Both the position numbers and the translations under genes were made by a program. DNA of 64,000 nt, from positions 186,001 to 250,000 of the forward strand of contig NZ_CM001555.1 of the NCBI RefSeq assembly GCF_000275865.1, read 5' to 3'. The DNA is from Methanofollis liminatans DSM 4140. Its GTDB lineage: Archaea > Halobacteriota > Methanomicrobia > Methanomicrobiales > Methanofollaceae. The notes below the pieces were generated by a model. The model was not told where the DNA came from, did no database searches, and saw only the letters and a program-made list of their open reading frames with translations. Below are positions 7,901 through 35,318 of the stretch, piece by piece. The number at the start of each line of letters is the position of its first letter. The first letter of the stretch is position 1.

Positions 7901-8092
7901 TTCCCAGATTACAATCCTGATATCGTGTCGGTATCCAGAGGGCACCTCAAGGTTCAGCAGATACTTCGGCCCTCCCTGAGTCGTTGCATAGTAGGGCTGC
8001 GAGGATAAACGGGCCCGGCTCTGAATCCATTGGTCTTTGTAGGCCTCCGGTTCTTTCACCAGCGTATCAAAGGGAACATATGTTCCAGTCAA
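4904..8092 (-). CDS. Cas4/Dna2-like nuclease fused to a catalytically degenerate SF1 helicase
   Basis: The 1062-aa product begins at a TTG directly after the stop of the upstream gene, which implies translational coupling. After an N-terminal OB-like part there is a RecB/Cas4-type nuclease (about 130-390): LHCPRIYYLEYI, ISRGNVVHSICEHL, GVLDFLIDGSVPVELKTSS, QLKVYLL and a later CEEC cluster. This matches a PD-(D/E)XK site with a probable Fe-S cluster. The C-terminal half aligns by eye with Dna2/Upf1 helicases, but the motifs are ruined. The P-loop position reads HSPSQTSDVER, motif II FDYVCATGAEQ, motif III LIGDAFRMSYPV and motif VI LYTMFTSAEENLIVVGD. I infer a live nuclease carrying a dead, probably structural or DNA-binding, helicase half, comparable to AddB. 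Confidence 0.8.
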   Translation of the reverse strand: MTGTYVPFDTLVKEPEAYKDQWIQSRARLSSQPYYATTQGGPKYLLNLEVPSGYRHDIRIVIWEHPPSWLPYTETSPNLVSLFGSDDEECKKMCHLFSQGEEVFFEGFLKYSAEIFWINVERILIAHPSIAIGPREIIGALHCPRIYYLEYIKNTTDNILRRPVKQISRGNVVHSICEHLTLSGEIVHLSEMGGRERTGRLREIVENETNTTFRMSSALHLLADDTLESVQKDAYFHLKDLTQETEVADFFRGRNVVTERMVNQLYGFSGVLDFLIDGSVPVELKTSSQLHEEHLIQLKVYLLVSYLDSGNRMGHLMYSKCVESRSSGECRHIHPVELTEEDIDAILYGRHRVLLMRRGMQLPSPQNMDCEECRYRRPSPYSLQKMYPACSFYCQTERYWDCYLYDEHGQITALCPLFDDCELKFSYFDTEIIDHWNKMRKAISAENEELTLLARQLRNLPEETLRMGGQKVSNLKLMTRSDQVCIFSSDEALPCLDCIPGDRVSISTEDGKNTYSGTLAGIGLNEVQVLFGGSPSEEFFGSPRYALSRDYSEKAIMRYLLRVSDYTERNRQEMRLSSGSRGKILETRALKEYDPVAVAKDLFRSKLVAIHSPSQTSDVERCVEILGHLSEKFSVLVVLRNRSEIEEFVQRYPRTHDLLIIDREEDFPPKPRVCEIGENNSPRDIQEKISLSRVIITDIGFLQRSHFFEALSHPERSYYFDYVCATGAEQFFEPMFYYIKNLGYSTLLIGDAFRMSYPVRSREARSLGLEERPFERLVLYDSYFESNDYAVYHEPFRRLPGSVVRAFEKIDSEISSERIDGNLTYIDVKGHERSVFRVDCLYQICMGDERMNYQMVIEPDRVLDAATIETLLENLTKHSISNYGPGSSFQVGECSCRVVQIDPLGSANASDPKENVSVVIRIPISLSETLQELLYSNEEEAEEVIALLKAMSPDEQKETAVITPFISQASLLKKRLYMAGIGCVSVWLPFQISGRSFRSCIISLVSANAERVIRYPLTDPGVLYTMFTSAEENLIVVGDRETIGQSRLIAEIISENRSPDEI

Positions 8093-12720: not shown

Positions 12721-12732
12721 TGGATCACCTGA

Positions 12733-16089: not shown

Positions 16090-16888
16090 ATAATTTCAAC
16101 TCCTGTGCCATGTCCATGTTAATCGAGAATTTTTCATAACTTCCAGCAGTAATGAGATCAGGGAGAAGCGAATTTTTCAGAATCGAAAACCGTTCATCAA
16201 ATTCAGGGTAGTTCATGTTATATCTGAGAGAAAAGCGTTCTTTCATTGAGTATAATGGGACCGTACCGTCCTTGTCTTTCAATTCACAGTATTCCTCAAC
16301 CAGAAGTTGAGCAAAGATCATGTTGTGGAGGTTTACAAGGGTATATGAGGCCGGAGACTCTCCATCTTTCTTTTTCTGGAGGAGAGATAGTCGTTCCAGT
16401 TCCGCAAGTGAGGTCTCAATCGTGAAGGGATTAAATGAGTGTCCAAAAACATTCCTTTTGTCATATTTCATGCCAATTTCTGATTTGGATAACTGTTTCC
16501 TGCGGAATATGAATGCAGCCAGATCCCTGATCTCCGGTGAATAGTAGAGCGCGTTTGTCTGCAGCATGAGCAGCGCACCCTGTTTATCGCCATTGAGATC
16601 GGCCGCATAGATCTGTTTTCCAGAATAGAGATTGATATGGTCCTGATTTAGGGCTGATGTCAGAACCAGATTCTTGTCATCCTCGGCAACAAACTGGAGA
16701 ACCTTCAAATTATAGAGAACATCGGTTGTCGCACCGGACAGGGATTTTTTCCCTTTTTTTTCGATCTCTTCATTATCACAAAATTGTTTCAGATAATTAA
16801 AGAGTTTTTCTTTGGAAATCGGGCCATTTTTGCCTATATAATTAATGGCAAGAATAATTCGATTTGGATCAGATATTGCTCTTCGCAT
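16082..16888 (-). CDS. DpdG-like small protein, first gene of the operon
   Basis: This 268-aa protein has an N-terminal segment that looks like a winged helix (about 8-60, ILAINYIGKNGPISKEKLFN) and a second helical domain; no enzyme motif is visible. A GAGATGAT Shine-Dalgarno precedes the ATG, and a TATA-like CTATTTAT sits about 45 bp upstream on the minus strand. In bacterial dpd loci a protein of this size (DpdG) precedes the ATPase DpdH, and here too it overlaps the ATPase gene, by 8 bp. An adaptor or DNA-binding role is inferred. Confidence 0.65.
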   Translation of the reverse strand: MRRAISDPNRIILAINYIGKNGPISKEKLFNYLKQFCDNEEIEKKGKKSLSGATTDVLYNLKVLQFVAEDDKNLVLTSALNQDHINLYSGKQIYAADLNGDKQGALLMLQTNALYYSPEIRDLAAFIFRRKQLSKSEIGMKYDKRNVFGHSFNPFTIETSLAELERLSLLQKKKDGESPASYTLVNLHNMIFAQLLVEEYCELKDKDGTVPLYSMKERFSLRYNMNYPEFDERFSILKNSLLPDLITAGSYEKFSINMDMAQELKLYE

Positions 16889-17009
16889 GAACCATCATCT
16901 CATGGAACAGATTACTATTGGGTAGATTCGATAAATAGGTTTGGAATAGACACTTTCGGGCTCCGCTCCAAATTATTAATCCGGAGTAATACTACATAAT
17001 TATAGAAAC
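16889..17009. promoter_or_regulatory. Divergent promoter between the restriction operon and dpdA
   Basis: In these 121 bp a minus-strand TATA-like box (CTATTTAT, about 16931-16938) would place a start site about 20 bases before the first operon gene, leaving room for its Shine-Dalgarno. A plus-strand box (AATTATTAAT, 16971-16980) would place the dpdA start site about 8 bases before its ATG. The layout would let modification and restriction be controlled together. The boxes are read by eye. Confidence 0.45.
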
Positions 17010-18731
17010 ATGCGCTACTTCATTCCAGAATGGGACGATCGGGTGGACCCCCACTATGACTTTCTCACCGATACGCATTCGCAGACTCATTCCGACGATC
17101 CGGTCAAAAACGACTCCTACATGTGGGACCTCTTAGGAGTTGAAAATGTTCCATTTAATGGTGTGCTGGTTTCAATAGCCACGATTGAGCAAAATAAGAA
17201 GAAATACGCGATGATAAAAGAACAGGGGATCCATCGTTTCTTCGGTCTCCCCGATTCTTTCCCGATAATGGCCGACTGCGGGGCGTTCTCCTATATTGAT
17301 GAAGATGTGCCGCCCTATCGCACCTCCGACATCCTGGAAAAATATTCTGAGATGGGTTTTAACTATGGGGTGAGCGTCGATCACCTCGTTGTCAAAGCTT
17401 TTGAAGAGAAAAAAGAAGAAAGGATGGAAATTACTTATCAGAACGGCCTTTCTGCATTTGAAGAGTGGAACAAAAAATATCGTGATGATTTTCAGTTGAT
17501 CGTTGCAGTCCAGGGTTTTTCCACGGATGATTATCTCAGAATGTACCATAAGTTTCTGGATCGAGGGATAACCCATATGGCTATGGGAGGTCTTGTACGA
17601 TCTCAAACTTCGGAAATCATTGATTTGATAGATCGTCTTATCGCCGACCTAAAGAAAAACAGCAAAATACATGGTGCTTCCAGAAAACCCGAATACCTCC
17701 ATTTTTTCGGTGTTGCACGACCAGACCTGTTTTTCAGGTTGAAAGAGCTTGAATCACTGGGAGTGGAGGTTGCATTTGACTCTGCCTCATATCTCAGACG
17801 GGCGTGGTTGGCCTCTCCGACCAGTCAGATGAACTATATCACCCAGGACCAGATTGGCTATACGGCCATCCGCATACCCCAGGATTTGTCCAAAAAACAG
17901 CGAGAGTCTTTAGACCCTGAGATCTATCATCGTCTGGAAGAAAAAGCCCTGAGCACTCTCCGAGCATACGATCACGATAAGGCCGACCTCGACGAGGCCC
18001 TGGATGTTTTGCGGGATCTAGGCGATTATATCGGTGAGAGGCCGGAGATTCTTGAACATTATCGGCGCACTCTCAAGGATCAACCGTGGAAGAAGTGTCC
18101 CTGTCCGATATGCCGGAAAAATGGAATGGATACGATTATATTCAGAGGAAATAATCGCAACCGAAGGAGAGGATTTCATAACACTATTTCGTTCTTCACT
18201 CTCCTCAGAAATGAGGGTCAGTGGGATAGAACGTATGCAGGAACCGAGATTGAAACACTGGAGGAATTCTCATATGGTCAATCTGTTCTGGTCATCACTG
18301 GATGTACGAAAAATAAATGTGAAATCGGGGAAAATCGAAAGGTTGCTGCTAAAGACTTGTATACTGGGACACTTTTCACGAAAGTACGGGCCTTTTGCGA
18401 GGGGATGGGATATGATTACCGGATCATCTCTGCGAAATATGGCATATTGTCACCTGAAGATCAGATCACGACCTATGAAAAAGTATTGAAAAGTCGGGCC
18501 GATGCCGATCAGATCCGTCCCTCTGTGGAAGCCGGGCTCAAACCCATCCTGGATATGTACGATACGATACTTGTGATTGCAGGGGTGCAATATCGCGACG
18601 TCCTAAAGCATATCATAGATGAACGATTTGTCTTTTTAAAAGCGAAAGGAATTGGCGATCTGATCCATAAGGTGTCGGTTGCCATTCCGGATGTAAATAG
18701 GACAATCAATGAGTTTTCGCGTGATCAATAA
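17010..18731 (+). CDS. dpdA: DpdA-type DNA 7-deazaguanine transglycosylase fused to a YaaA/DUF6884-like domain
   Basis: This 573-aa protein has a complete TGT-like barrel. It shows D89 in MADCGAF (general acid/base position), AMGGLV (191-196), the probable nucleophile D257 in VAFDSASY, and the zinc site C363-x-C365-x2-C368...H390. The PUA domain of archaeal tRNA transglycosylases is absent. Instead residues about 425-573 form a second domain (VLVITGCTKNKC, AAKDLYTG, IISAKYGIL) of the YaaA/DUF6884 kind. DpdA enzymes exchange guanine for preQ0 in DNA (known). Archaea make preQ0 for archaeosine, so the substrate should be available. It is transcribed away from a helicase/nuclease operon, as expected of a modification gene. 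Confidence 0.85.
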   Translation: MRYFIPEWDDRVDPHYDFLTDTHSQTHSDDPVKNDSYMWDLLGVENVPFNGVLVSIATIEQNKKKYAMIKEQGIHRFFGLPDSFPIMADCGAFSYIDEDVPPYRTSDILEKYSEMGFNYGVSVDHLVVKAFEEKKEERMEITYQNGLSAFEEWNKKYRDDFQLIVAVQGFSTDDYLRMYHKFLDRGITHMAMGGLVRSQTSEIIDLIDRLIADLKKNSKIHGASRKPEYLHFFGVARPDLFFRLKELESLGVEVAFDSASYLRRAWLASPTSQMNYITQDQIGYTAIRIPQDLSKKQRESLDPEIYHRLEEKALSTLRAYDHDKADLDEALDVLRDLGDYIGERPEILEHYRRTLKDQPWKKCPCPICRKNGMDTIIFRGNNRNRRRGFHNTISFFTLLRNEGQWDRTYAGTEIETLEEFSYGQSVLVITGCTKNKCEIGENRKVAAKDLYTGTLFTKVRAFCEGMGYDYRIISAKYGILSPEDQITTYEKVLKSRADADQIRPSVEAGLKPILDMYDTILVIAGVQYRDVLKHIIDERFVFLKAKGIGDLIHKVSVAIPDVNRTINEFSRDQ

Positions 18732-18864
18732 ACGGCATGATATAGTTGCAACTCAGAGGTTGCGCTTAATTTGAGGTTGGATTGCCGGTTGATGTAAACA
18801 ACAAATACAGACGTTATAATAACCTTGGGATCTTCCCCGCCTCCCAACCGCTCAAAAAACATTT

Positions 18865-18886
18865 TTGTCGTTATACGTAATTGAGT
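18865..18886. repeat. 22-bp direct repeat, copy 1
   Basis: Copy 1 contains TTGTCGTTATACGTAATTG and is followed by AGT, then TCGAT. It matches 19117-19138 at 21 of 22 positions. Confidence 0.7.
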
Positions 18887-19116
18887 CGATCAGAAGACGG
18901 TTTCAACCCCAGTATCTGTATGTGCCTCACTTTTATTTGAGGCTTGGTAATGTGATTGGAAGAGGTGGTGAACCCCGGTCTATAGAACCGGAGATCTATA
19001 GATCTGCTGTGATGAATCATTCGTTTTTCATAATAGATGTACACAAATGCTAAAATGCAAGACGGTCACTCAAAACATATCAAAATCTATAAATAATGCA
19101 AACGCCAAACCTCTCC

Positions 19117-19138
19117 TTGTCGTTATACGTAATTGGGT
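19117..19138. repeat. 22-bp direct repeat, copy 2
   Basis: Copy 2 has the same TTGTCGTTATACGTAATTG core, 252 bp to the right of copy 1, followed by GGT. It may be a promoter-proximal operator, a short-element end or an old attachment site; sequence alone does not decide. Confidence 0.7.
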
Positions 19139-19414
19139 GACTCGATGGGCTAATTCAGTATATTTCATCAATCCGGTCGACGTTCCTGTATTCTGGTGGG
19201 GTCTTCTGTTGCCTCCTCTGTGTAGGGACAACTCTGCCGTTCATCATCAGATATCAGTGTCGTACTTCATGTTCCCAGGGATAGGTTTCCCCCTCGATCT
19301 GGGTTCCCTGTCGGTGCAATCTATCAGATTCGATGATCGAATCCACACAAACTGCTCATCCCGGTCCCTTCGCGTATATCAGCAAATGATTGTTGATGAA
19401 CAGAAGTGACGCCA

Positions 19415-20194
19415 ATGAAAAAAAATCTGATAAATCAAATGGATGAGGATTCGGATCCCGGAAACTGGGGTGAAGATGAATCCTACCAGAACCATCCGGT
19501 ATTCTCTGGGTCACCTGATAAAATTCCATCACAGGAAGAGTTTGAGCGCCTTGAGTCGGCACTTCAAAAGACGACGTTGATGACGGGCATGACCATCCAC
19601 GACATTCTCAATAAGATATCTGTGATCTATGGATATCAGGCACTTATTGGTCGTCAGATGCCGAATCATGGTGATTTTCGCCGGCACTATGAAATCATGA
19701 TGGAGGCGGTAGACTGCATACGGCAGTATGCTGAGTTCAACAGGTTCTATCTGGGTCAGGGGATACCACCATCAACATGGCTCAGTCTCTCCCGCCTGGT
19801 TCAGGAGTCAGTGGTTGGCATATCCCATGAAAATGTTGATCTTGTGATCAATATTGGAAATGTCGAGATCTACGCCGATGAATTGATGAAAAAGGTATTT
19901 GTCAATCTAATCGAGAATGCCCTTTCCCATGGCGAAAAAGTTTCAAAGATTCAGATTGGGTTTTCTGAAAATGACGAAGGAGCCATCATTCTCATCGAAG
20001 ACGACGGATGTGGGATCCCGGCAGAAAACAAGTGCCGAATTTTCGAGTACGGCTTTGGGAACCATACTGGCATGGGCCTTTTCTTCAGCCGGCGGGTGCT
20101 TAATCTCTTCGGTTTTTCGATCCGCGAGACCGGCCAGGAAGGATGTGGCGCACGGTTTGAGATCAGAGTTCCTCTGGATCGGTATCGTTGCTAG
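19415..20194 (+). CDS. Compact sensor histidine kinase (DHp plus HATPase)
   Basis: The protein is about 259 aa from the ATG at 19415; a GTG at 19406 would add three residues, but AGTGAC before the ATG is a usable Shine-Dalgarno. It has a dimerisation helix with the phospho-acceptor region MTIHDILNK, an N box FVNLIENALSHG, a G1 box IEDDGCGIP and a G2 box TGMGLFFSRRVL, so it should autophosphorylate. No membrane segment or PAS sensor domain precedes it, so it is probably cytosolic and takes its input from a partner. No response regulator lies next to it. This short type is common in Methanomicrobiales. Its place between two defence-like loci may be chance. Confidence 0.85.
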   Translation: MKKNLINQMDEDSDPGNWGEDESYQNHPVFSGSPDKIPSQEEFERLESALQKTTLMTGMTIHDILNKISVIYGYQALIGRQMPNHGDFRRHYEIMMEAVDCIRQYAEFNRFYLGQGIPPSTWLSLSRLVQESVVGISHENVDLVINIGNVEIYADELMKKVFVNLIENALSHGEKVSKIQIGFSENDEGAIILIEDDGCGIPAENKCRIFEYGFGNHTGMGLFFSRRVLNLFGFSIRETGQEGCGARFEIRVPLDRYRC

Positions 20195-20343
20195 ATTGAT
20201 TCCTGATCTTCTTTTACTATTAGATATTACGTAATTTTCAGTAAAAGCCATTCATACCATCCACAGTTTACAGAGCAGACAAAAACGTTACTTATTTTAT
20301 CATATGAGAGAAAAATGGCATCAATAGTGGATAAGGTGACGAT

Positions 20344-22719
20344 TTGATTCAATTTCAGGATTTCATGGCCGCAGTACAATCTTCGCTGGACAGGACCATT
20401 ACACCCGACGGCAACCAGGGCCAGTATGAAGCCATTGAAAGTGCTCTGGATCGCTCGCTCTTTATCGTGGCCGGCCCGGGGAGCGGAAAGACGATGGTCA
20501 TGGCTCTGCGGGTATTGAAACTGATTTATGTGGACAAAATTGACTCTTCAACGATCCTTGCCACCACCTTTACCAAGAAGGCGGCCGCAGAGTTGCGGTC
20601 CCGCATTCTTGGATGGGGAGATCGTTTACGTGAGGCGTTTATTGAAAACCCGGCCTACACCGACCAACTGGAGGCCCTGCAGTCGATTGATTTCAATCAG
20701 ATCGTCACTGGAACCATCGACAGCATCTCTGAGAACATCCTGCAGGAGTACCGGGAGCCAGGAAGTCCGGCTCCGGTGATCATTGAGGATTTCATCGCGA
20801 ATGCCATGATGGTGCGATATGGCCTCCTCAGAGGTCATCGTTACCAGAACGAGGACCTGAAACAATACCTGAAAAATCTCAGTGGTAATACTCGTGGGCT
20901 GAACACTGGGGGGATGGCAGGAATCCTGCTCGAAATCCGGGATCGGATCTGTCACGACCAGGTCGACATCGATGCCTTCTGTGAGTCAGGGGAAGATCCT
21001 GGGATCGAAGTAGCCTGCGAGGCGATCCGGGCCTATATGCGGGAACTGGAAGAGCGACTGCTCTATGACTACAGCCAACTGGAGCAGGAATTCTATCAGA
21101 AACTGCTGGATGGAGGGCTCACCGAATTTACTGATAAAATTCGCTTCGTTCTTGTGGATGAGTACCAGGATACAAACCTGCTCCAGGAACACATCTACTT
21201 TGAACTGGCCTGCCACGCCCTGCAGAATGGGGGGAGCGTCACTGTGGTCGGTGACGACGACCAGTCGATCTACCGCTTCCGCGGGGCAACTGTGGACCTC
21301 TTCACTCACTTCCCTGCACGGATCCAGGAAGCGCTCGGGGTTCAACCTGCCACGATCACCCTCTCGAAAAACTACCGCTCCACCCACACTATCGTCGACT
21401 GCGTTGAGCACTATGTAGCATGCGATGAGAACTTCCAGCAGGCACGGGTGGCAGAAAAACCCGCCATCCAGCACGCGAGAATCGGAACACAGGAAAACAT
21501 TCCAATCCTGGGCATGTTCCGAGAAGATATTGATACTCTGGCAGAGGACCTCTCTGCCTTTCTCCGGGATGTGGTCGACAATGGAGGGGTCGAGATCACT
21601 CAGAACGTTACGACCTATACCCTCCGTATTGATGCTGATCACGGATCCTCGGCTGATATTTGTGTCCTCTGCAGTTCACCCCAGGAAGTGAAGGCCAACG
21701 GAGATCCACGTCTGCCATATTTGCTTCGCCACTATCTACACACATCCCCCAATCCAATTGATGTCTTCAACCCGCGTGGACAACAACTCAAGGATATCCC
21801 CGAAGTACAGGCGCTCTGCGGGCTCATGCTGGAATGTATCGATCCTGGGTGCCTTGTCCAGAACGGGATACGAAACCTTCCGAACGATGCACAGGACACC
21901 TTTAGCACCTGGAGGGAAGCGGCTCACACCTATATTCAGCAGCATACCGAAAAGCATGGAGAGATAACCCTCGAAGAGTTTGTGCAGGGCTGGCAGACCA
22001 GAACCCCGCGGAAAGCCTTTGAACAGAAACGTGAAGTTCCCCTCCTCGACCTGGTATACCGGCTGGTGACGTGGATTCCTGCCATGCAGGATGATGTGGA
22101 AGGACTCGTCTATCTCGAAGTGATCACCAGAACGGTCACTCAATCTGCCGTTTTCACCAGTTTCGGCAGTGAGATCATCTTTGATGCCAACGCACCAGAC
22201 CTCGAAGGAAAATCGATCAAAGATGCGATACGCGGGATCTTCATCCCCCTTGCAACTGGGGCCATCGATATCAACGAGGATCTCCTGGAAACCATCCCCA
22301 ACAATCGCATTCCGATCATGTCCATCCATCAGGCGAAGGGGCTCGAGTACCCCCTGGTCATTGTGGACGTAGGGTCCGATTTCAAGACCGATCACCATAC
22401 GCAGGCCTTCAAGCGCTATCCGAAAGAGGGGGGGAAGACATGCAGAATGGAGGATGAACTCCGTGCCTTCTCTCCCCTCCTGGTTCCTCAACGACCAGGA
22501 GTTGATCGAGCCTTCGACGACCTCATACGACAATATTTCGTGGCCTTCAGTCGTCCCCAGGATGTATTGCTCCTCGTCGGTCTGAACAGCGTGAAGGATG
22601 GCTACCTCACCAGGGGGAGGAGACCGAACCGTAAATTCATCCCTAACGTGGCGACAGGATGGGATCGCAACGATACTTGGCACTGGGGGCAGGGGCTGCC
22701 TAATATTGTTCATCTCTAG
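20344..22719 (+). CDS. UvrD/Rep-type SF1 helicase
   Basis: The 791-aa product starts at TTG, chosen because AAGGTGAC lies just upstream; the first ATG would cut into the N terminus. All SF1A motifs are intact: VAGPGSGKT (I), TFTKKAAAELRSRI (Ia), VLVDEYQDTN (II), VVGDDDQSIYRFRGA (III), LSKNYRST (IV), MSIHQAKGLEYPLVIV (V) and YFVAFSRPQD (VI). It should be an active 3'-5' DNA translocase. It is followed 13 bp later by a RecB-like nuclease gene on the same strand, giving an AddAB-like or two-gene defence pair. No OLD nuclease (Gabija) is present. Confidence 0.9.
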   Translation: MIQFQDFMAAVQSSLDRTITPDGNQGQYEAIESALDRSLFIVAGPGSGKTMVMALRVLKLIYVDKIDSSTILATTFTKKAAAELRSRILGWGDRLREAFIENPAYTDQLEALQSIDFNQIVTGTIDSISENILQEYREPGSPAPVIIEDFIANAMMVRYGLLRGHRYQNEDLKQYLKNLSGNTRGLNTGGMAGILLEIRDRICHDQVDIDAFCESGEDPGIEVACEAIRAYMRELEERLLYDYSQLEQEFYQKLLDGGLTEFTDKIRFVLVDEYQDTNLLQEHIYFELACHALQNGGSVTVVGDDDQSIYRFRGATVDLFTHFPARIQEALGVQPATITLSKNYRSTHTIVDCVEHYVACDENFQQARVAEKPAIQHARIGTQENIPILGMFREDIDTLAEDLSAFLRDVVDNGGVEITQNVTTYTLRIDADHGSSADICVLCSSPQEVKANGDPRLPYLLRHYLHTSPNPIDVFNPRGQQLKDIPEVQALCGLMLECIDPGCLVQNGIRNLPNDAQDTFSTWREAAHTYIQQHTEKHGEITLEEFVQGWQTRTPRKAFEQKREVPLLDLVYRLVTWIPAMQDDVEGLVYLEVITRTVTQSAVFTSFGSEIIFDANAPDLEGKSIKDAIRGIFIPLATGAIDINEDLLETIPNNRIPIMSIHQAKGLEYPLVIVDVGSDFKTDHHTQAFKRYPKEGGKTCRMEDELRAFSPLLVPQRPGVDRAFDDLIRQYFVAFSRPQDVLLLVGLNSVKDGYLTRGRRPNRKFIPNVATGWDRNDTWHWGQGLPNIVHL

Positions 22720-26862: not shown

Positions 26863-27042
26863 TCACTTCTTCCGATACACATTCACCCCGATCTTCACCT
26901 CCTCCCTCCCCGGCACCGAAACATTCCCATCCGTCGAAGCGATCGTGATCGACTTCCCTGACTTCGACGCCCCGAACTCCTGCGAGAGATCGACCGTGAT
27001 CACCAGCCTATCCCCCTCCACCTTCATATCAACATTTTTCAT
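26863..27042 (-). CDS. 59-aa conserved small protein
   Basis: The protein starts MKNVDMKVEGDRLVI and ends IGVNVYRKK. It is a small soluble beta-rich protein of a type widespread in methanogens and some bacteria, of unknown function. Its start lies inside the 3' end of the Orc-like gene (14-bp overlap), so it is probably co-transcribed with that gene. Alternating hydrophobic and polar residues and the conserved look argue for a real gene. Confidence is moderate because the family is recognised from memory only. Confidence 0.7.
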   Translation of the reverse strand: MKNVDMKVEGDRLVITVDLSQEFGASKSGKSITIASTDGNVSVPGREEVKIGVNVYRKK

Positions 27043-28216
27043 CGTCGCACACTCCTGCAGGACCGTTCACCGGCACCCCCGATGAACCTGCCGGGACCTG
27101 GAGCACCTCCTCCACCCCCTCCCGCACCAGGATCACCCGCGTCAGCCCCCGTCTCCTGACCACGGCCAGGTCCACCAGCCTGAGGAGTTCGAGCCTCCGC
27201 AGCCGCTCGTGAAACGCCGTGTAACTCATCTGCATGCGGTCGCCGAGGCGCTCGTACACCCGCCCGGAGATCACCGGCTCCTCCTCGTCCTCCAGCCCGG
27301 CCGCCACGATCGAGTCGAGCACCGCCCGCTCCCCGGCGTCCAGGGACCGCACCGCCCGCTCCACCTGCAGGTTCAGGGAGGCCGCATACGCGGCGAGCAC
27401 GTCCGCCGCCTCCACCTCCCGCCGGGCGTCCATCTCGGCCGCGAGGGCCGCCCGCCTGATCATCTCCGGCCCCACCCTGAGGTCCCCGCAGGCGTGCGTC
27501 CGCTCCACCAGGAGGTCGAGCACGGCCGGGGGCACGACGCCGGGGTACAGCCCGGCCCGGATCCGGTCGGCGAGGATCCCCCTGATCTCCTCGGGCGTGT
27601 ACAGGGGGAAATAGACCTCGGAGGCCTGGAGCACCGAGCGCGTCGCCGGGTCCAGGCAGCGGACCAGGTCGACGTCCACGTCCGAGACGACCAGCATCAC
27701 CCCGGCCCGCGTCCCGGGATAGCCCTCGTGCATCCTGAGGATCCCGGCGAGCAGGTCGTTCAACACGTTGTCCGGGAGGAGATACCCGGCATCGTCCAGG
27801 CAGACGACGAGCACCGCACCCCGGGCGGTCAGTTCGCCGGCGATCCGGCCCATGAGCCGCCTGAGCGGGACGCCCGACCCCGGCGGCACCTGGCCGAAGA
27901 GGGCGAGATAGACCTGGCCGAAGACTGCATAGGCCGTGCGGTGGACCTGGCAGGAGACGAGCACCGGCACGACCGCCTGCGTCGCCTCCTCCACCTCGGC
28001 GAAGATCCGGCGGACGGCCGTGGTCTTCCCGGTCCCGGGCGGCCCCCGCAGCACCGTGTTCAGGGGCGCGGACCCGCGGAGCGTCGGCCGCAGGGCGAAG
28101 GCGAGGTCTCTGATCTGGGCGTCGCGGTAGTTGAAGGTCTCAGGGAGGTGGGTGGTATCGAAGGTCCTGGAGTCCCGGAAGAGCGTCTGGTCCGCCATGA
28201 GGGGAGTACGGGTCAT
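27029..28216 (-). CDS. orc1: Orc1/Cdc6-family AAA+ ATPase
   Basis: The protein is 395 aa if it starts at the ATG at 28216. A TATA box (TATATA, 28240-28245) about 26 bp before that ATG suggests a leaderless message; the next ATG at 28198 is the alternative. Motifs are Walker A RGPPGTGKTTAVRR, a Walker B-like VVCLDDAGYLL (DD in place of the usual DE), sensor-type residues and a C-terminal winged helix (about 300-380). Orc1/Cdc6 proteins bind origin boxes and load the replicative helicase, and many methanogens carry several, some on mobile units. The upstream stretch has no clear origin repeats, so an initiator role is not shown. Confidence 0.8.
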   Translation of the reverse strand: MTRTPLMADQTLFRDSRTFDTTHLPETFNYRDAQIRDLAFALRPTLRGSAPLNTVLRGPPGTGKTTAVRRIFAEVEEATQAVVPVLVSCQVHRTAYAVFGQVYLALFGQVPPGSGVPLRRLMGRIAGELTARGAVLVVCLDDAGYLLPDNVLNDLLAGILRMHEGYPGTRAGVMLVVSDVDVDLVRCLDPATRSVLQASEVYFPLYTPEEIRGILADRIRAGLYPGVVPPAVLDLLVERTHACGDLRVGPEMIRRAALAAEMDARREVEAADVLAAYAASLNLQVERAVRSLDAGERAVLDSIVAAGLEDEEEPVISGRVYERLGDRMQMSYTAFHERLRRLELLRLVDLAVVRRRGLTRVILVREGVEEVLQVPAGSSGVPVNGPAGVCDDEKC

Positions 28217-28237
28217 GGTGAAGGGGTGGTCGGGAGG

Positions 28238-28248: not shown

Positions 28249-28343
28249 GCGGGCCGTGCGTGCGGGGTGAAAGTGAATGTGAACCCTCGCATGGGGAAGA
28301 CCGCTCAGGTGGAACCGTTCCGGCACCTTTATGGGTGAGGGTA

Positions 28344-28457: not shown

Positions 28458-31136
28458 ATGAGATCCGGACGAATGACGGCAGGTGTCCTCCTGCTCATCG
28501 GGCTCTGCCTCCTGGCGGCGCCCGGGGGGGCGGGAGCAAACGAAAGCGGCGATACGATGTTCGACGACGAGCAGGCATTCGATATCCCGGCAGCCGCCGG
28601 CGTCGCCGGCTCTGCGACGAACGATGTCGGCATCACCTCCACCAAAGAGACTCTCATCAGGAGCAACCCCTTCGTCGTGACCGTCACCGGCGGCCCGAAT
28701 ACCGAATACTACCTCTACGTGAGGGACGCCGCCGTTGCGGCGAAAAAATACCCGTACATCAAGACCGGCCAGCCCTCCGTGACGATCGCCGACGCCGCCT
28801 TTGCGGGCGCCCCCGATCCCGCCGCCGACACCCTCGCCAACAGCGAGCGGGCAAAAGCCGGCGGCGCATACGTCCCCGGCACCGCGGCCGTCCTCACCAC
28901 CGACGCCGAAGGAGCCCGTTACGTGGAGTTCGGCACCACCGCCAACACCACCCCCTCGACCTACTTCATCACGGTCGTTGACCCGGCCGACGCCTCGAAC
29001 TTCGGCGACCTCAGGGTCACGGTGAGGGTGGGGGATGTCACCATCACCGCCGAGGGCGCGGGCACCTACTACATGGGCGATAGGATCAAACTCTCCGGCA
29101 CCAACACCGACAGCAACGACGTCTACCTCTTCATGACCGGTCCGAACCTCGGCGATGGGGCGGGCGTGGAACTGGACGACCTTTCGGCCTGGGCCTCGGC
29201 CGGCAACTACGTCCGGCGCCCGGTCGAGTCCGACGACACCTGGGAGTACGGGTGGGACACCGCCTTCCTCTCAAGGGGCTACTGTGTCCTGGACGCCGGC
29301 ACCTACACCGTCTACGCATGCAGCAACCGTGTCGACGACCAGGGCAACAACGTCGACAAATACCACCTCTCGGGCGTGCGGTACCAGACCTTCTCGCTCG
29401 TGTTCAAGCCGCCCACCATCTCCCTGGACGGGATCGAAGCGGTCGTCGCCAAGGGCGATCGGCTGACGATCAGCGGCACCGCCACCGGAAACCCCGATCA
29501 GGTAAGGATCTGGATCATCGGCACGAGGTACCGCCTGCTCGGTGTAACCGCCTTTGCCGAAGAGGACGGCACCTTCTCCTACACCCTCGGGCGCCTGGAC
29601 ACACGACACCTCAGCTCGGGCCAGTACTATGTTGTCGTCCAGCACCCGATGTGCGAGCATGTATTCAACGTCTTTGCCTTCGCACCGGGCTCCACCAGCG
29701 ACTTCAGGATCGCTAACACCTGGTCGTCGGAGACCGTCGACCTCGGCTCCATGGCTGCCTCCGACGCCGTGACTGCCCTCGTTGACATGATCGAGTCGCC
29801 GCACTGTGACGACATCTGCCGCAAATTTACCTTCAGTGTCGAGGAAGCCTGGATCGCGTTCGACCCCGTCGCCAACCATACCGTCGGCGAGACCTTCACG
29901 GTCGCCGGGAGCACCAACCTCGCCGCCGGCGACATTCTCGTCTACGATGTGTTCTGCGCCTCCTTCAACCCGACCGTTCCGGGCGATGAGCCCGGATACG
30001 GGGCGAGCGGCACTACCACGGTCAGGACCGGCACCGGCACGAACGAGTGGTCCTTTGAGGTCAATACGACCATATTTTCCGCCGAACCGTACCGAATAAC
30101 CGTCGAATCGGTGGAAGCCGACGTGAGCAAAGCCGCCACGCTTTACCTGGACGGCGAGTCGTATACGCCGCCTGATCCGCCGGTGGGTCCGACGGGCGGG
30201 AACTACGGGATCGAGTATATCTTCATCGACCCGGAGACGGACAGGATCGTTGCCGGGGAGAGCGTATGTCTGCGCGGTGGGTTCTCCCTCAAAGATGACG
30301 GCGATTCCACCTTCCCTGCCGGCGACCGTCTCGAATGGCGTACCGATCTCGAAAACCCCTGCTGGCGGTATACCATTGAGGTAGGAGATGTCTCCGCCGG
30401 GTCCCGGACGGTGTACGCTCGAAATCTCACCATCGACGGCTTCGACCTCTCGTACAACGCTGATCTCGATGTCCGGATACGGCTCTCTCTCTCCGGCAAC
30501 GCCTCTTTGACCTCGGCCGCCCTGAACCAGACGCTGCTTGCGGTCAGGCAGGTGGACGGAGACGGGGCGTGCGTGAACGGGAGCGAGTATCTCCTCCGCT
30601 TTACCCCTTCAGGAGCGCCGTCAACCACCATCGCCCTCTCCCCCGGCTGGAACTTCGTCTCCACCCCGAAGACCCTCGCCGCCGGGAAGGACACGGCAGC
30701 GATCTTCGCCGGGGTGGACACGGCGGGCCACTCGGTCCTCCGCTACGACACGCCGACGGGAACCTGGGTCGCCCTGAAACCCACCGACCGGATCCGCCCC
30801 CTGGAGGGCTACTGGATCTACGCGGCGGCGGCCACCGAGATCACCCTCTTCTCCTCCACCGCCTCCCCGCAGGCCCCGCCGGAGCGTGCCCTTGCGGCCG
30901 GGTGGAACGCCGTCGGCTTTTCCGACACCGAACCGGCCGCCGCCCGCGACGCCCTCGTCTCCCTCGGCGGCACATGGTCGGTGGTGATGGGCTTCGACGC
31001 CGCCGCCCAGACCTACGAGACCTCGATCATCAGGGGTGGGAGCGGGGAGCACAGCGATGCGGGCTGGCTGCTCCCGGCGAAGGGATACTGGCTGTACATG
31101 ACGGAAGACGGAACGCTCGCCGCCATCGGGGCGTGA
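28458..31136 (+). CDS. Secreted S-layer-like protein
   Basis: The protein is 892 aa from the ATG at 28458, which starts a clean signal peptide (MRSGRMTAGVLLLIGLCLLA, cut near GAGA/NES); the longer frame would bury it. The mature part is a series of acidic, threonine-rich beta-sandwich-like modules of the kind in Methanomicrobiales S-layer proteins (VTGGPNTEYYLYVRD near the N terminus, repeats starting GDRIKLSG and GDRLTISG). It ends in two related WNFVSTPK/WNAVGFSD modules. No C-terminal membrane anchor or PGF-type sorting tail is visible, so anchoring is unclear. The downstream PKD-dockerin gene is 11 bp away, so they form one unit of envelope proteins. Confidence 0.8.
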   Translation: MRSGRMTAGVLLLIGLCLLAAPGGAGANESGDTMFDDEQAFDIPAAAGVAGSATNDVGITSTKETLIRSNPFVVTVTGGPNTEYYLYVRDAAVAAKKYPYIKTGQPSVTIADAAFAGAPDPAADTLANSERAKAGGAYVPGTAAVLTTDAEGARYVEFGTTANTTPSTYFITVVDPADASNFGDLRVTVRVGDVTITAEGAGTYYMGDRIKLSGTNTDSNDVYLFMTGPNLGDGAGVELDDLSAWASAGNYVRRPVESDDTWEYGWDTAFLSRGYCVLDAGTYTVYACSNRVDDQGNNVDKYHLSGVRYQTFSLVFKPPTISLDGIEAVVAKGDRLTISGTATGNPDQVRIWIIGTRYRLLGVTAFAEEDGTFSYTLGRLDTRHLSSGQYYVVVQHPMCEHVFNVFAFAPGSTSDFRIANTWSSETVDLGSMAASDAVTALVDMIESPHCDDICRKFTFSVEEAWIAFDPVANHTVGETFTVAGSTNLAAGDILVYDVFCASFNPTVPGDEPGYGASGTTTVRTGTGTNEWSFEVNTTIFSAEPYRITVESVEADVSKAATLYLDGESYTPPDPPVGPTGGNYGIEYIFIDPETDRIVAGESVCLRGGFSLKDDGDSTFPAGDRLEWRTDLENPCWRYTIEVGDVSAGSRTVYARNLTIDGFDLSYNADLDVRIRLSLSGNASLTSAALNQTLLAVRQVDGDGACVNGSEYLLRFTPSGAPSTTIALSPGWNFVSTPKTLAAGKDTAAIFAGVDTAGHSVLRYDTPTGTWVALKPTDRIRPLEGYWIYAAAATEITLFSSTASPQAPPERALAAGWNAVGFSDTEPAAARDALVSLGGTWSVVMGFDAAAQTYETSIIRGGSGEHSDAGWLLPAKGYWLYMTEDGTLAAIGA

Positions 31137-31147
31137 AGGAGATGCGT

Positions 31148-31963
31148 ATGAAAACATATGCATGTGTCTGCCTCTTCCTCCTCGCCCTCGCTCTCCCGGC
31201 CGGAGCCGTGCCCGTCCTCCCGCAGGAGGTCTACGGGACGGTGACCTGCAACGGCACCCCGGCCCCGGCCGGAACGGTCGTCGCCGCCCTGATCGACGGG
31301 GTGGTCTGCGGGCGGTTTTCCCTCGACGAGGCGGGCGTGATGGGCGGTGCCGGCACCTTCGACGAGCGGCTGATCGTAGGCGGCGAAAGTGCAGGAAAAA
31401 CCGTTTCCTTCATCGTGAACGGGGAGGCGGCCACCGAGACCCTGGCGTTTTCGCCCGGCACCGTCGCCCGCCTGGACCTCACCGCTCCCGAGGACGCTCT
31501 CATCCCGCAGGGCCCCCATGCGGCCTTCTCCGCCTCGCCCACCCTGGGCGTCGCCCCCCTCACCGTCAGGTTCGCCGACCTCTCGGCGAACGCCTCGGCC
31601 TGGGCGTGGACCTTCGGCGACGGGACGACCTCGACGGTGCAGTACCCGATCCACACCTACACCGCGGGCGGCACCTACACCGTCGTCCTCTCGGTCAACG
31701 GCGGGGCGGGGGTAGCCAACGCCACGATCGGCGTTTTGCCCGTCCTCTTCGGCGACGCCAACGACAACGGCGCCGTCGACCAGGCCGACACCCTCCGGGT
31801 GCTCAAGCAGGTCGTGGGTCTGGCGGCGATGCCGGCGAGCGGGACGGATCTCTTCAGGCAGACCGACGTGCACGAGAACGGTGCGATCGAGATCGGGGAC
31901 GCCCTCTTCATCGCCCAGTACAATGTGGGGCTGCGGGGGGCGTGGTTCGGGATGGGGGGATGA
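31148..31963 (+). CDS. Secreted PKD-domain protein with C-terminal dockerin-like repeats
   Basis: The protein is 271 aa. The ATG at 31148 is preferred over 31142 because GGAG then sits 7 bases upstream. A signal peptide (MKTYACVCLFLLALALPAGA) precedes a beta-rich domain, a PKD domain (about 120-190, with APLTVRFAD and WAWTFGDGT) and two EF-hand/dockerin type I repeats (GDANDNGAVDQADTLRVLKQ and TDVHENGAIEIGDALFIAQ). Dockerins bind cohesins in a calcium-dependent way; no cohesin is in the window. Coupled to the S-layer-like gene upstream, it is probably displayed on the cell surface. The first copy of the repeated promoter block begins right after its stop. Confidence 0.85.
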   Translation: MKTYACVCLFLLALALPAGAVPVLPQEVYGTVTCNGTPAPAGTVVAALIDGVVCGRFSLDEAGVMGGAGTFDERLIVGGESAGKTVSFIVNGEAATETLAFSPGTVARLDLTAPEDALIPQGPHAAFSASPTLGVAPLTVRFADLSANASAWAWTFGDGTTSTVQYPIHTYTAGGTYTVVLSVNGGAGVANATIGVLPVLFGDANDNGAVDQADTLRVLKQVVGLAAMPASGTDLFRQTDVHENGAIEIGDALFIAQYNVGLRGAWFGMGG

Positions 31964-31966
31964 GAT

Positions 31967-32013
31967 CCCATCCGCACACTATACATGAACGCATGCACCA
32001 CCCGAAACCAGAT
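31967..32013 (+). promoter_or_regulatory. Repeated promoter block, copy 1
   Basis: This block reads CCCATCCGCACACTATACAT then GAACGCATGCACCACCCGAA, ending just before an ATG at 32014. It matches the blocks at 32678 and 33401. In this copy the TATA element is damaged (TATACAT instead of TATAAAT), in keeping with the decayed gene behind it. Confidence 0.8.
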
Positions 32014-32515
32014 ATGCCCTCCCTCGCCCTGACCCCGTCCGCATCTTCATCAGCAGCGTGCAGAAGGAGTTCGCCGGGGAACGGGCGGCCCTCCGCGACT
32101 ACCTGCGGGGCGACGCACTGATGCGGCGGTTCTTCGAGGTCTTCCTCTTCGAGGACGTCCCGGCCGCCGACCGCCGCACCGACGACCTGTACCTCGACGA
32201 AAAAATCCCCGATCGTCAGATATCGGACACCCTAAAAACGGAAGATGTCCGATAAATGTCCGATAAATGTCCGTTATCTTGCCGGGTATACTTCGACACA
32301 TCAGGCTTTCCCGGGCAAGGCCGGGCTGCGCTCGCGAAAGGCTCCGGAGGGGATACGCCATGAGCATCGTCGGCGACCAAGGAACTCACCGTCGGCGCCA
32401 GCACCGCACTGAGAGACCTGCACGACATGGTCGCAAAGCATGTTCTTGAACGGCGGGGCGCATCTCGGCGGGACATGCACTATGTCCTGTTCAGGGAGAC
32501 GAGGGGGTCACCGTG
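32014..32515 (+). pseudogene. Decayed DUF4062 / AlbA_2-type ATP-binding protein gene
   Basis: Two fragments remain. Bases about 32040-32210 encode RIFISSVQKEFAGERAALRD and FFEVFLFEDVPAADRR, the start of a DUF4062 domain, but out of frame with the ATG at 32014. After a stop at 32253-32255 and a scrambled stretch, bases 32380-32515 encode KELTVGASTALRDLHDMVAK followed by a VLERRGASRRDMHYVLFRE-type end. That end is nearly the same as the C terminus of the intact gene at 33448-34848. The middle (AlbA_2 and HATPase) is deleted. The intact relative lacks DUF4062, so this was a sister gene with a longer N terminus. Confidence 0.8.
32219..32275. repeat. Cluster of TGTCCGATA direct and inverted repeats
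   Basis: TATCGGACA (32219-32227) is inverted relative to TGTCCGATA (32246-32254), which is itself tandemly repeated with an 11-bp period (ATGTCCGATAA at 32244 and 32255, then ATGTCCGTTA at 32266). It lies in the scar of the decayed gene. Confidence 0.65.
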
Positions 32516-32567
32516 ATGTGGTGTGATAAGGAGTGATGTGGTGTGATAAGGAGTGATGTGGTGTGAT
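32513..32567. repeat. 20-bp tandem repeat, 2.75 units
   Basis: The unit GTGATGTGGTGTGATAAGGA occurs at 32513 and 32533, with a partial third unit at 32553. It begins exactly at the stop codon of the decayed AlbA_2-type gene. Confidence 0.9.
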
Positions 32568-32610
32568 GATCTCCCGACAGATCGCAAAGGCTCTTTCCGG
32601 CACGGGGTAA

Positions 32611-32659
32611 CCCCTCACCCCCACCCGATCATCTGCAGCACGATCGCCACCGCCCCGCC
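32611..32659 (-). repeat. Duplicated 3' end of the small membrane-protein gene, copy A
   Basis: The minus strand encodes GGAVAIVLQMIGWG and a stop, almost identical to the end of the gene at 34908-35150. It is a fragment only, with no start. Confidence 0.85.
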
Positions 32660-32677
32660 GGAACCGATCGGGGGGCG

Positions 32678-32724
32678 CCCATCCGAACACTATAAATGAA
32701 CGCACGCGCCACCCGAAACCAGAT
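32678..32724 (+). promoter_or_regulatory. Repeated promoter block, copy 2
   Basis: The block reads CCCATCCGAACACTATAAAT then GAACGCACGCGCCACCCGAA. The TATAAAT element is about 30 bp before the ATG of the nucleotidyltransferase gene at 32725, which fits a very short leader. Confidence 0.85.
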
Positions 32725-33009
32725 ATGCACCCTCTCGCCCTGGTCCGCCAGAACCTCCGCACCATCCGGGAACGCTACGGTGTGGCACGCATCGGCGTAT
32801 TCGGGTCGGTCGTGCGGGGCGAGGCCACCCCGGAAAGCGACATCGACATCCTGGTGGAGTTTCGGGAGGGGGAGGAGACCTTCGACCATTTCATGGACCT
32901 CAAGTTCTACCTCGAAGACCTCCTGGGCCGGCCGGCCGATCTCGTCATTGCCGATACCTTAAAGGCCAGGATCAGGAGCACCGTTCTGGCAGAGGTGGTC
33001 TATGCCTAG
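32725..33009 (+). CDS. mntA: MNT-domain nucleotidyltransferase, MntA-type antitoxin
   Basis: This 94-aa protein has the minimal nucleotidyltransferase signature GSVVRGEATPESDID (GS-x10-D-x-D, about residues 27-41), so it should be catalytically able. MntA-type proteins neutralise HEPN toxins by adding AMP to the tyrosine of RX4HXY (known). Such a HEPN gene overlaps its 3' end by 8 bp. The promoter is one of three near-identical blocks in this region. The pair is a plausible type VII toxin-antitoxin module, but see the frameshift in the toxin. Confidence 0.85.
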   Translation: MHPLALVRQNLRTIRERYGVARIGVFGSVVRGEATPESDIDILVEFREGEETFDHFMDLKFYLEDLLGRPADLVIADTLKARIRSTVLAEVVYA

Positions 33010-33329
33010 AGACCTCCTGCTCTCCCTGGAGGACATCAGGGATGCCCTCTGTGGGGGAACGGTCGTTTGAGGATGTTGTGGACGATCCGATGTGCCTCGA
33101 CGCCGTCGTGCTGCGGTTCATCACCATCGGGGAGGCGGTGAAACATCTCCCGGCCGACCTCACCGCCGGCCATCCCGAGATCGAGTGGCGAAAGATTGCC
33201 GGGCTCCGGGACATCAGTGTTCATTCGTATTATTCGGTGAAACCGACGATTCTCTGGGATATCATCCAGACCAAACTCGATCCCCTTGACGAGGCCGTCG
33301 AGGGTATGATCCGGGATGAAGGGGAATAA
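33002..33329 (+). pseudogene. hepT: HEPN (HepT/DUF86-like) toxin gene with an N-terminal frameshift
   Basis: The natural ATG at 33002 starts MPRDLLLSLEDIRDA but reaches a stop after 22 codons. The rest of the protein lies in another frame (33042-33329, 95 aa) and includes ERSFEDVVDDPMCLDAVV and the active-site motif RDISVHSYY (R-x4-H-x-Y). Compared with usual HepT proteins about 8 residues are missing at the junction, so a small deletion has shifted the frame. The ATG at 33042 could still give a shortened protein that keeps the catalytic motif, so activity is not excluded. A sequencing error is a further possibility. Confidence 0.75.
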
Positions 33330-33380
33330 CCCTCTTCACCCCCACTCGTTCATCTGCAAAACAATCGCCACCGCCTGCCC
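33330..33380 (-). repeat. Duplicated 3' end of the small membrane-protein gene, copy B
   Basis: The minus strand encodes AVAIVLQMNEWG and a stop, a more diverged copy of the end of the gene at 34908-35150. It begins directly after the HEPN stop codon. Confidence 0.8.
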
Positions 33381-33400
33381 GGCCCCGTCATGCGGCACAA

Positions 33401-33447
33401 CCCATCCGAACACTATAAATGAACGCATGCACCACCCGAAAAGAGCG
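33401..33447 (+). promoter_or_regulatory. Repeated promoter block, copy 3
   Basis: The block reads CCCATCCGAACACTATAAAT then GAACGCATGCACCACCCGAA and leads to the ATG at 33448. It is the same block as at 31967 and 32678. Confidence 0.85.
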
Positions 33448-34848
33448 ATGAAAACCCCCACGGCTGACCTCTCCTCCCTCCTCACCCGCTATGAAGGGCG
33501 GCAGATCGACTTCAAGGAAGAGGTGAGCAGCACCTTCTACAAACTCCTTTCCGCCTTCGCCAACACCGCCGGCGGCACCGCCGTCCTCGGCGCGAGGGAC
33601 CGCGACCACGCCGTCACCGGCATCGACCTGCGCAACAACGCCCAGAAAAAACTCGCAGACAGCATCACAAGCCGGCTCGGCATCCACCCGGTCATCGAGA
33701 CCCACGAGATCGACGGCAAAAATATCCTCATCGTCACCGTCGAGCAGAGCCGCACGCCGGTCGCCTATGACGGCCGCTACTACACCCGCGTCGGCGACAC
33801 CACCCGCGAGATGCTCCCGGACGAACTGCGGGGCTTCTTCCAGGAGAGCATCGAGTGGGACAGCGTCCCCGGGACGTTCGACCTCGATGAGATCGACGCG
33901 GCGAGCGTCCGGCGGTTCCTCGCCCTCGCCCGGAAAGCTGGCCGCCTCACGGCCACCGACCCGGAAGAACCGGTCGAGGCCGTCCTCCGCCGTCTCGGCC
34001 TCATCAGGGACGGCCGCATCACCAACGGCGCCATCGCCCTCTTCGGCACCGACCCGCAGCACCACTTCCCGAACACCGTCCTGCGGATCGGGAGGTTCAG
34101 GCGGGCCGACATCATCATCGGCGACCACGAGATCAGGGGCAACCTCTTCGCCCAGTTCGAGGAGGCCGAGCGGACCATCAAGAACTACATCGGCGTCCGC
34201 TACGATATCTCCGAGGAGGCGATGCGGGAGTCCTTCCAGCGAAAGGAGGTCTGGGACTACCCGCTCCCGGCGATCCGGGAGGCCCTCCTCAACGCCCTCA
34301 TCCACCGTGACTACTTCAACAACACCGTCCAGACCCAGGTCAGGATCTTCGACGACCACATCCGCTTCCACAACCCGGGCCGCCTCCCCGAGGGCGTCAC
34401 CATCGAGATGATCCTCAGGGAGCACTACTCCTACCTCCGTAACCCGCGGATCGCTGACATCTTCTACCGTGCCGGCCTGGTGGAGCGCTACGGGTCTGGG
34501 ATCGAACGGATCATCAGGGCACTGATGGAGGAAAACCTGCCGGCGCCAGAGATCGTCAGCACGCCCCTCGGCTTCACGCTCACCATGCGTTCAAACCCCT
34601 TCACCGACGAATTCCTGCAGGCACTCGATCTGAACGATCGGCAGATCGCGGCCGTTTCCTACCTCAAGGAGCATGGCACCATCACCAACAGCCAGTACCA
34701 GGAACTCACCGCCGTCGCTGCCCGGACCGCACTGAAAGACCTGAACGACATGGTTGCAAAGCATGTTCTTGAACGTCGTGGCACTTCACGGCGGGATACT
34801 CACTATGTTCTGTTTAGGGAGATGGGGGGTCACCGTGATAATGCGTGA
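33448..34848 (+). CDS. AlbA_2 / HATPase_c_4 ATP-binding protein
   Basis: The protein is 466 aa from the ATG at 33448, placed by the TATA box of the repeated promoter block. An N-terminal AlbA_2 (Schlafen-core-like) domain covers about 10-130 (EGRQIDFKEE, ANTAGGTAVLGA, YTRVGDTTREM). A GHKL-type ATPase (HATPase_c_4) covers about 260-390 (IREALLNALIHRDY as N box, NPGRLPEG, RYGSGIERI). A winged helix follows (GTITNSQYQELT). Proteins of this type (COG2865) are often called RecG-like regulators and are frequent in defence regions, but their role is unsettled. The final codons run into a tandem repeat. It is a paralogue of the decayed gene at 32014-32515. Confidence 0.85.
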   Translation: MKTPTADLSSLLTRYEGRQIDFKEEVSSTFYKLLSAFANTAGGTAVLGARDRDHAVTGIDLRNNAQKKLADSITSRLGIHPVIETHEIDGKNILIVTVEQSRTPVAYDGRYYTRVGDTTREMLPDELRGFFQESIEWDSVPGTFDLDEIDAASVRRFLALARKAGRLTATDPEEPVEAVLRRLGLIRDGRITNGAIALFGTDPQHHFPNTVLRIGRFRRADIIIGDHEIRGNLFAQFEEAERTIKNYIGVRYDISEEAMRESFQRKEVWDYPLPAIREALLNALIHRDYFNNTVQTQVRIFDDHIRFHNPGRLPEGVTIEMILREHYSYLRNPRIADIFYRAGLVERYGSGIERIIRALMEENLPAPEIVSTPLGFTLTMRSNPFTDEFLQALDLNDRQIAAVSYLKEHGTITNSQYQELTAVAARTALKDLNDMVAKHVLERRGTSRRDTHYVLFREMGGHRDNA

Positions 34849-34886
34849 TCAATGCGTGATAATGCGTGATCAGTGCGTGATAATGC
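34835..34886. repeat. 21-bp tandem repeat, 2.5 units
   Basis: GTGATAATGC and GTGATCAATGC (or GTGATCAGTGC) alternate, giving a 21-bp unit from 34835 to 34886. It starts within the last codons and stop of the AlbA_2 gene. Confidence 0.9.
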
Positions 34887-34907
34887 CCTAGGCAAAGGAG
34901 TGACCCC

Positions 34908-35150
34908 TCACCCCCACCCGAGCATCTGCAGCACGATCGCCACCGCCCCGCCCACGACCCCCCCAGCCCCGGCGGCGATCTGCCTGTCCCGCCTGCTCTC
35001 CCCCACCGTCTCGCTCCGCCACCCCTCCAGGGCGCGGAGCCTCTCCTCCCGGCAGGTCCCCTCCTCCTCCATCCTTGAGAGGGTCCGGCAGATCCATTTT
35101 ACGTCCCTGGCCGTCTCGGCGACCAGCTCCCGCGTCGTCTTCTCGGGCAT
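34908..35150 (-). CDS. Small holin-like membrane protein
   Basis: The 80-aa product has an acidic/basic helical N-terminal part (ARDVKWICRTLSRMEEEG) and one C-terminal membrane helix (GAGGVVGGAVAIVLQMLGWG). GAGGAG lies just before the ATG. The layout resembles small phage-derived coiled-coil/holin-type proteins, but I recognise no named family. Fragments of its 3' end recur at 32611 and 33330, so this is the likely parent copy and its 3' end may be a recombination target. Confidence 0.7.
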   Translation of the reverse strand: MPEKTTRELVAETARDVKWICRTLSRMEEEGTCREERLRALEGWRSETVGESRRDRQIAAGAGGVVGGAVAIVLQMLGWG

Positions 35151-35318
35151 GGCTCCTCGCCAGGGAGATCGCCGGGAACGGAGATGAGCGTTTCTTAACC
35201 CTGCCGTACGCCCCGCCCGTTCGGCCGTCCGATGTTAAGGCAGGCAGATATCCCCCAGGGTCATAGGAGAATGTGCCTGTTCATGTGCCCCGGAGCATGC
35301 GGGCAGGAGAAACACAAA

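Follow-up and report, generated by a model that had tools for sequence, protein, structure and literature searches.

Organization of the window locus

The subject of this analysis is an array of gene cassettes at positions 31967 to 35150 of a 64,000-nucleotide stretch (the window) from the archaeon Methanofollis liminatans DSM 4140, whose genome is assembled as one 2.475-Mb contig. The array lies between a gene for the replication initiator Orc1/Cdc6 and a gene for a small membrane protein, which is followed by a MADF gene (Table 1). It consists of three units, each led by a copy of a promoter block (P), and the units are separated by copies of a block (E) that corresponds to the final ~50 bp of the small gene. 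As had been proposed in an original prediction made from the window, the cargo differs between units, being a dead DUF4062/AlbA_2 fusion, an MntA/HepT pair, and an intact Schlafen-AlbA_2 gene.

The repeated promoter block of that prediction is real. All three copies were supported by BLAST and belong to a 65-nt family, in which the other two are 89% and 75% identical to the first; identity is 95% over the 41 nt that all three share. The TATA element lies ~30 nt upstream of the start codon, a spacing that points to near-leaderless transcripts. The repeated gene end of roughly 50 bp was also found, as two extra copies plus the full copy (34897-34952), but it belongs to the convergent minus-strand small gene and not to the cargo. 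P and the gene end had further been placed at each boundary, which holds for all but the first P; this copy has no preceding E and directly follows the stop codon of the PKD/dockerin gene at 31963. The stop codons of E copy B and HepT are only 6 nt apart. A third repeat, the AlbA_2 3' end (32389-32506 versus 34712-34829, 84%), closes units 1 and 3. Chance as the origin of these repeats was ruled out by BLAST E values of 1e-7 to 1e-20 together with their recurrence across the genome.

Unit 1 is a composite. Its first ~190 bp are 97% identical to an intact 490-amino-acid (aa) DUF4062-HATPase_c_4 gene at another locus of the same genome (locus B, L009), which contains DUF4062 and no AlbA_2 domain; the start of the window copy is frameshifted. 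The AlbA_2 3' end of unit 1 is 98% identical to AlbA_2 at L047, a locus of another species. Unit 2 encodes a nucleotidyltransferase with GSX10DXD beside a HEPN protein with RX4HXY (Pfam and sequence). It resembles the MntA/HepT (HEPN/MNT) type VII toxin-antitoxin pair (PMC7641770) in gene order, fold families, and key motifs; in contrast to that pair, the window HepT has its N terminus out of frame. Both proteins scored under the NCBIfam cut-off of 60 bits (MntA, 48.8; HepT, which is shortened, 34.6). The 17-bp deletion near the HepT start that puts the N terminus out of frame is common to L047 and, by length comparison, absent from L052 and L055. The MntA match in PADLOC (PDC-S09) denotes a candidate system only, and any defence role of the cargo is putative. 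Unit 3, the innermost and next to the small gene, is the sole unit intact in all parts.

Table 1. Features of the Orc1/Cdc6 locus in the window
Feature	Position	Strand	Evidence or remark
Orc1/Cdc6 replication initiator	27029..28237	-	NCBIfam ORC1-type DNA replication protein, 406 bits, over cut-off; Cdc6_lid
Two secreted-type genes, second with PKD/dockerin	28458..31963	+	Pfam PKD/Dockerin_1; 83% DNA identity to locus B copy
Promoter block P, copy 1	31967..32013	+	TATA ~30 nt before start codon
Dead unit 1	32014..32603	+	DUF4062-HATPase_c_4 5' 190 bp, tail, AlbA_2 3' fragment (32389-32506), repeat tail
E copy A, duplicated small-gene 3' end	32604..32659	-	95% to 34897-34952
Promoter block P, copy 2	32678..32724	+	100% identical to L047 copy
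MntA-type nucleotidyltransferase antitoxin	32725..33009	+	GS-X10-DID motif; Pfam NTP_transf_2 5.8e-18; PADLOC PDC-S09
HepT-like RNase toxin (RX4HXY)	33002..33329	+	Pfam HepT-like 2e-20; N terminus out of frame
E copy B, diverged small-gene 3'-end duplicate	33330..33380	-	85% to full copy (match at 33336-33375); junction 92% to locus B junction
Promoter block P, copy 3	33401..33447	+	Repeat match
Intact Schlafen AlbA_2 + HATPase_c_4 + winged-helix gene	33448..34848	+	Pfam SLFN_AlbA_2 2.7e-17, HATPase_c_4 4.8e-23
Repeat tail (GTGATAATGCGTGATCA)	34849..34896	+	92% to L050, 90% to L049; also scar at emptied loci
80-aa small membrane gene, right wall of slot	34908..35150	-	Last ~50 bp = E block
MADF gene, 167 aa	35319..35822	+	Adjoins small gene at nearly every Methanofollis locus

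A variable slot beside Orc1/Cdc6 genes

The survey covered 12 Methanofollis genomes and 187 other genomes of the order Methanomicrobiales. The small membrane gene was present in all 12 Methanofollis genomes, at 1 to 5 copies each. In addition to the window locus (locus A), the window genome holds two loci with the same small gene and MADF, namely, locus B, with the order E-P-DUF4062-E-small gene, and locus C (L010), with the order Orc1-E-P-AlbA_2 remnant-E-small gene. The common scaffold is Orc1/Cdc6, a variable slot, the small membrane gene, and MADF; cargo lies between orc1 and the 3' end of the small gene, or the slot is empty. Orc1/Cdc6 forms the left wall of the slot in relatives and adjoins the small gene at most related loci. 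Most loci have both genes on one strand and, for the most part, the slot cargo on the other. Loci A and B alone have two secreted-type genes separating orc1 from the first P.

At five loci (L053, L059, L062, L065, and L066), the gap between orc1 and the small gene holds little or nothing. The sequence of such near-empty slots starts with the Orc1 TATA-like element, passes a conserved GAAAGTGAA-type box, and ends at the stop codon of the small gene. A conserved GGGGTGAAAGTGAA-type box, a candidate Orc1-binding site, was seen beside the Orc1 TATA element at these five loci, at L050, and at about 28260-28285 in the window.

Filled slots contain MntA/HepT (L055), AlbA_2 (L060 and L089), MntA/HepT then AlbA_2 (L052), AlbA_2 then MntA/HepT (L047), a sensor kinase (L051), or a HerA-like ATPase with a 322-aa partner (L056). 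The last two genes occupy the same slot in two species (L009:8115-10177 and L056) and are possibly a two-gene system. The AlbA_2 genes (L010:6575-6847, L052, and L060) end in one of two alternative C-terminal winged-helix parts, and at locus C (L010:6575-6847) the first and last parts are fused into 90 aa. Beside the Orc1 gene of locus C, a 920-aa protein (L010:8173-10935) had no Pfam or NCBIfam match and, judged by eye, resembles a primase-polymerase/helicase.

Outside the genus, the order families f2 and f4 keep the scaffold, with a YnfA pair in the slot at L106 and a near-empty slot at L111 and L112. The MADF family occurs in 168 of the 199 genomes of the order, with up to 17 copies per genome, and copies within a genome are strikingly alike. 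MADF had no Pfam or NCBIfam match, and its confident structural model (predicted local distance difference test score, 91) found no structural relative. A provirus or plasmid origin of the scaffold was rejected: MADF is absent from viral contigs and plasmids, the small gene is absent from phage records, and the MADF model had no credible structural match.

Promoter P accompanies cargo and was probably captured

Across the 12 Methanofollis genomes, 15 copies of P were found in 7, and every one lies directly before DUF4062, AlbA_2, or MntA/HepT genes. P as a dispersed repeat was thus ruled out, and copies scattered without cargo, which would have spoken against the original prediction, were not seen. 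In the 187 genomes of the order outside Methanofollis, the E-P junction was not found at the search sensitivity used.

At three loci (L060, L089, and L090), a fossil of ~100 bp from the MntA start lies between P and AlbA_2, and the other AlbA_2 copies look like deletion derivatives of this P-MntA fossil-AlbA_2 state. In addition, DUF4062 genes and MntA have their first codons in common. Taken together, the fossil and the common codons suggest that P was originally the MntA/HepT promoter, later captured by AlbA_2 and DUF4062 genes, with MntA/HepT probably the founder of the array.

Loss and gain of units in colinear arrays

Close relatives differ by whole units. At L047, HepT runs straight into the small gene, whereas the window has HepT-E-P-AlbA_2-E-small gene at this place. 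L056 and locus B differ by a DUF4062 unit at E in the same manner, and empty loci such as L062 and L059 stand against the filled L055 and L060. At L049 and L050, the repeat tail of AlbA_2 lies beside the small gene with AlbA_2 gone, which reads as the scar of a lost unit. For these differences, we infer a direction of change (gain versus loss) that is proven in no single pair. As originally predicted, therefore, defence-type genes are gathered at one target in units with a common promoter and boundary, and relatives differ by the presence or absence of units.

A shuffled order between species, as the window and L047 might seem to have, was dropped: with the AlbA_2 3' end of unit 1 matching AlbA_2 of L047, the two arrays are colinear. 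Both run DUF4062, AlbA_2, and MntA/HepT, with a second AlbA_2 in the window, and L052 matches the last two. Order is kept among the window, L047, and L052, and these arrays differ by loss or gain. An order common to all strains, which would argue against repeated capture at the site, was thus found in part, namely, for the arrays of G000 (the window genome), G011, and G003.

This colinearity is in line with pure vertical descent, in which a single ancestral array underwent lineage-specific decay without exchange between loci. Identity to L052 points the same way, since AlbA_2 (90%) and MntA (87%) are close to the flanking genes (MADF, 85%; Orc1, 78%). However, the cargo genes are unrelated to one another, and P-cargo units adjoin different Orc1 genes at several loci. 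Two further observations, on the junctions and on the trees of the flanking genes, also count against it.

Recombination between loci

The E-P junction types do not track the cargo. The junction before MntA at L047 shares 94% identity with that before DUF4062 at locus B and 88% with the AlbA_2 junction of the window. It is only 72% identical to the window MntA junction, yet the MntA genes themselves are 98% alike over their first 200 nt and their P copies are identical.

The flanking genes also disagree with each other. In the MADF tree, copies from one genome cluster together (G000, G011, G003, and G004, with one G003 copy lying outside its set), whereas Orc1 groups by locus, uniting the window and L047 at 100/99. 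In approximately unbiased (AU) tests, MADF rejected a clade of the window and L047 (P = 9e-8) and Orc1 rejected one of the window and locus C (P = 1e-6); these P values are optimistic because the groups were picked after the first FastTree result, but the differences in log likelihood, 59 and 38, are large. This conflict would follow either from gene conversion or from a small gene-MADF block moving from one Orc1 locus to another. Together, the mismatch of junction and cargo and the conflict of the MADF and Orc1 trees indicate that the loci recombine with each other. For the whole locus, the tree conflict contradicts vertical descent, which is unlikely as a full account and may hold for parts of the array.

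Search for a dedicated recombinase

The original prediction compared the array to integron-like or attachment-site stacking, and this part was not supported. Five tyrosine integrases are encoded in the window genome, and no cassette contains an integrase; the distance to the nearest is >450 kb for the window locus, 32 kb for locus B, and 170 kb for locus C. None of the five exceeded the cut-off for an IntI-type integrase (best, 60 of 265 bits). No attC-type RYYYAAC/GTTRRRY motifs were present in 31900-35200, and the junctions folded no more strongly into hairpins than shuffled sequences. No transposase or serine recombinase was found among the Pfam-scanned cargo proteins; no genome-wide search for them was made. 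Integration targeted to tRNA genes was rejected, with scattered tRNA genes near some loci only and none at the slot.

An integron-type array, with P as cassette promoter and E as an attC-like site, would account for varied cargo with a repeated boundary, and integrons are known in archaea (PMC9668308). However, in addition to the absence of IntI, attC motifs, and junction folding just described, a promoter stands before every unit rather than one for the whole array. This explanation is refuted on the tested features, and we give it almost no weight.

In another alternative, site-specific integration, the 3' end of a gene (E) would serve as attachment site, onto which an integrase in trans would stack P-cargo-E circles. 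The architecture is that of an integrative element, with the complete gene at one flank and a duplicate of its 3' end at the other; breakpoints cluster in E, and the five integrases could be a source of the enzyme. Against this, the cassettes have no integrase and the nearest ones are distant, E differs in its right edge and the spacer differs as well, giving three or more junction types, and the junctions recombine independently of cargo. We therefore consider it improbable.

A slot probably maintained by homologous recombination

The probable explanation, in our view, is an integrase-free slot between Orc1/Cdc6 and the small gene that is upkept by homologous recombination among paralogous loci. 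It explains the data better than the original prediction, and one window could not have revealed it. An early insertion, probably of an MntA/HepT pair with its own P, would have duplicated the last ~50 bp of the small gene to give orc1-E-P-cargo-E-small gene. The two direct E repeats and the common P would then act as short homology arms: E x E recombination between different loci would stack or remove whole P-cargo units, and exchange within P would swap the downstream gene. The MADF and small-gene copies would be homogenised by the same recombination. In at least one lineage, AlbA_2 would have become the P-driven gene by breaking into the MntA gene. The enzyme route is presumably RadA-type homologous recombination.

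Several points weigh against recombination among paralogous loci. As arms for efficient homologous recombination, E (~50 bp) and P (47 bp) are short. What moves could instead be the small gene and MADF, and an integrase might act in trans on E. Which of AlbA_2 and MntA took the place of the other is deduced from fossils of a single kind, and several reconstructed steps rest on single loci, some of them in draft assemblies.

Comparison with known systems

In bacteria, hotspots without mobile elements, with homologous recombination in the flanking core genes, have been described (PMC5635113). These homologous-recombination hotspots (Oliveira 2017) are the nearest kind of system, with variable cargo between conserved flanks, no local integrase, and a recombination signal in the flanks. 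At the Methanofollis loci, likewise, different cargo lies between the same flanking genes in related genomes, and the conflict of the MADF and Orc1 trees is such a signal. Unlike those hotspots, the slot is multiplied beside several Orc1/Cdc6 paralogues in one genome, its boundary is a duplicated gene 3' end, and unrelated cargo stands under one common promoter. Integron gene-cassette arrays, including archaeal ones (PMC9668308), are alike in their stacked units and repeated boundary, but the Methanofollis units have neither IntI nor attC and carry a promoter in each unit. Integrative elements at gene 3' ends (attL/attR) are likewise flanked by the full gene and, at the opposite side, by a copy of its 3' end; here, in contrast, the unit has no integrase, the target is a small protein gene, and the junction edges vary.

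Unusual features are the association with Orc1 genes, the duplication of a gene end, and the use of one promoter by unrelated cargo. No description of an orc1-linked cassette of such kind was found among the papers searched. One speculative extension, which we rate as rather unlikely, is a plug-in slot tied to the replication initiator, in which E and P are built-in homology arms, unrelated stress or defence genes are gained, swapped, and lost next to Orc1/Cdc6 without a recombinase of their own, and the linkage to the origin is itself selected.

The locus is a compact case, readable base by base in 12 genomes, of toxin-antitoxin and defence-like genes stacked, swapped, and lost without their own integrase. 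It places cargo turnover beside replication-initiator genes in an order of methanogens and makes testable whether short common promoters and gene ends are sufficient for cassette exchange in archaea.

Other features of the window

Positions 4904-22719, which precede the Orc1 locus, hold a series of large genes with ~44 to 50% G+C next to flanks of 63% G+C; this region resembles an island acquired separately, perhaps one of defence type. GC skew showed no clear turn at the window Orc1 gene. In the window, tandem GTGATRATGCGTGATNA-type repeats (32513-32572 and 34830-34880) lie in the interval from AlbA_2 to the small gene; they are greatly expanded in L064 and could be origin iterons or a minisatellite.

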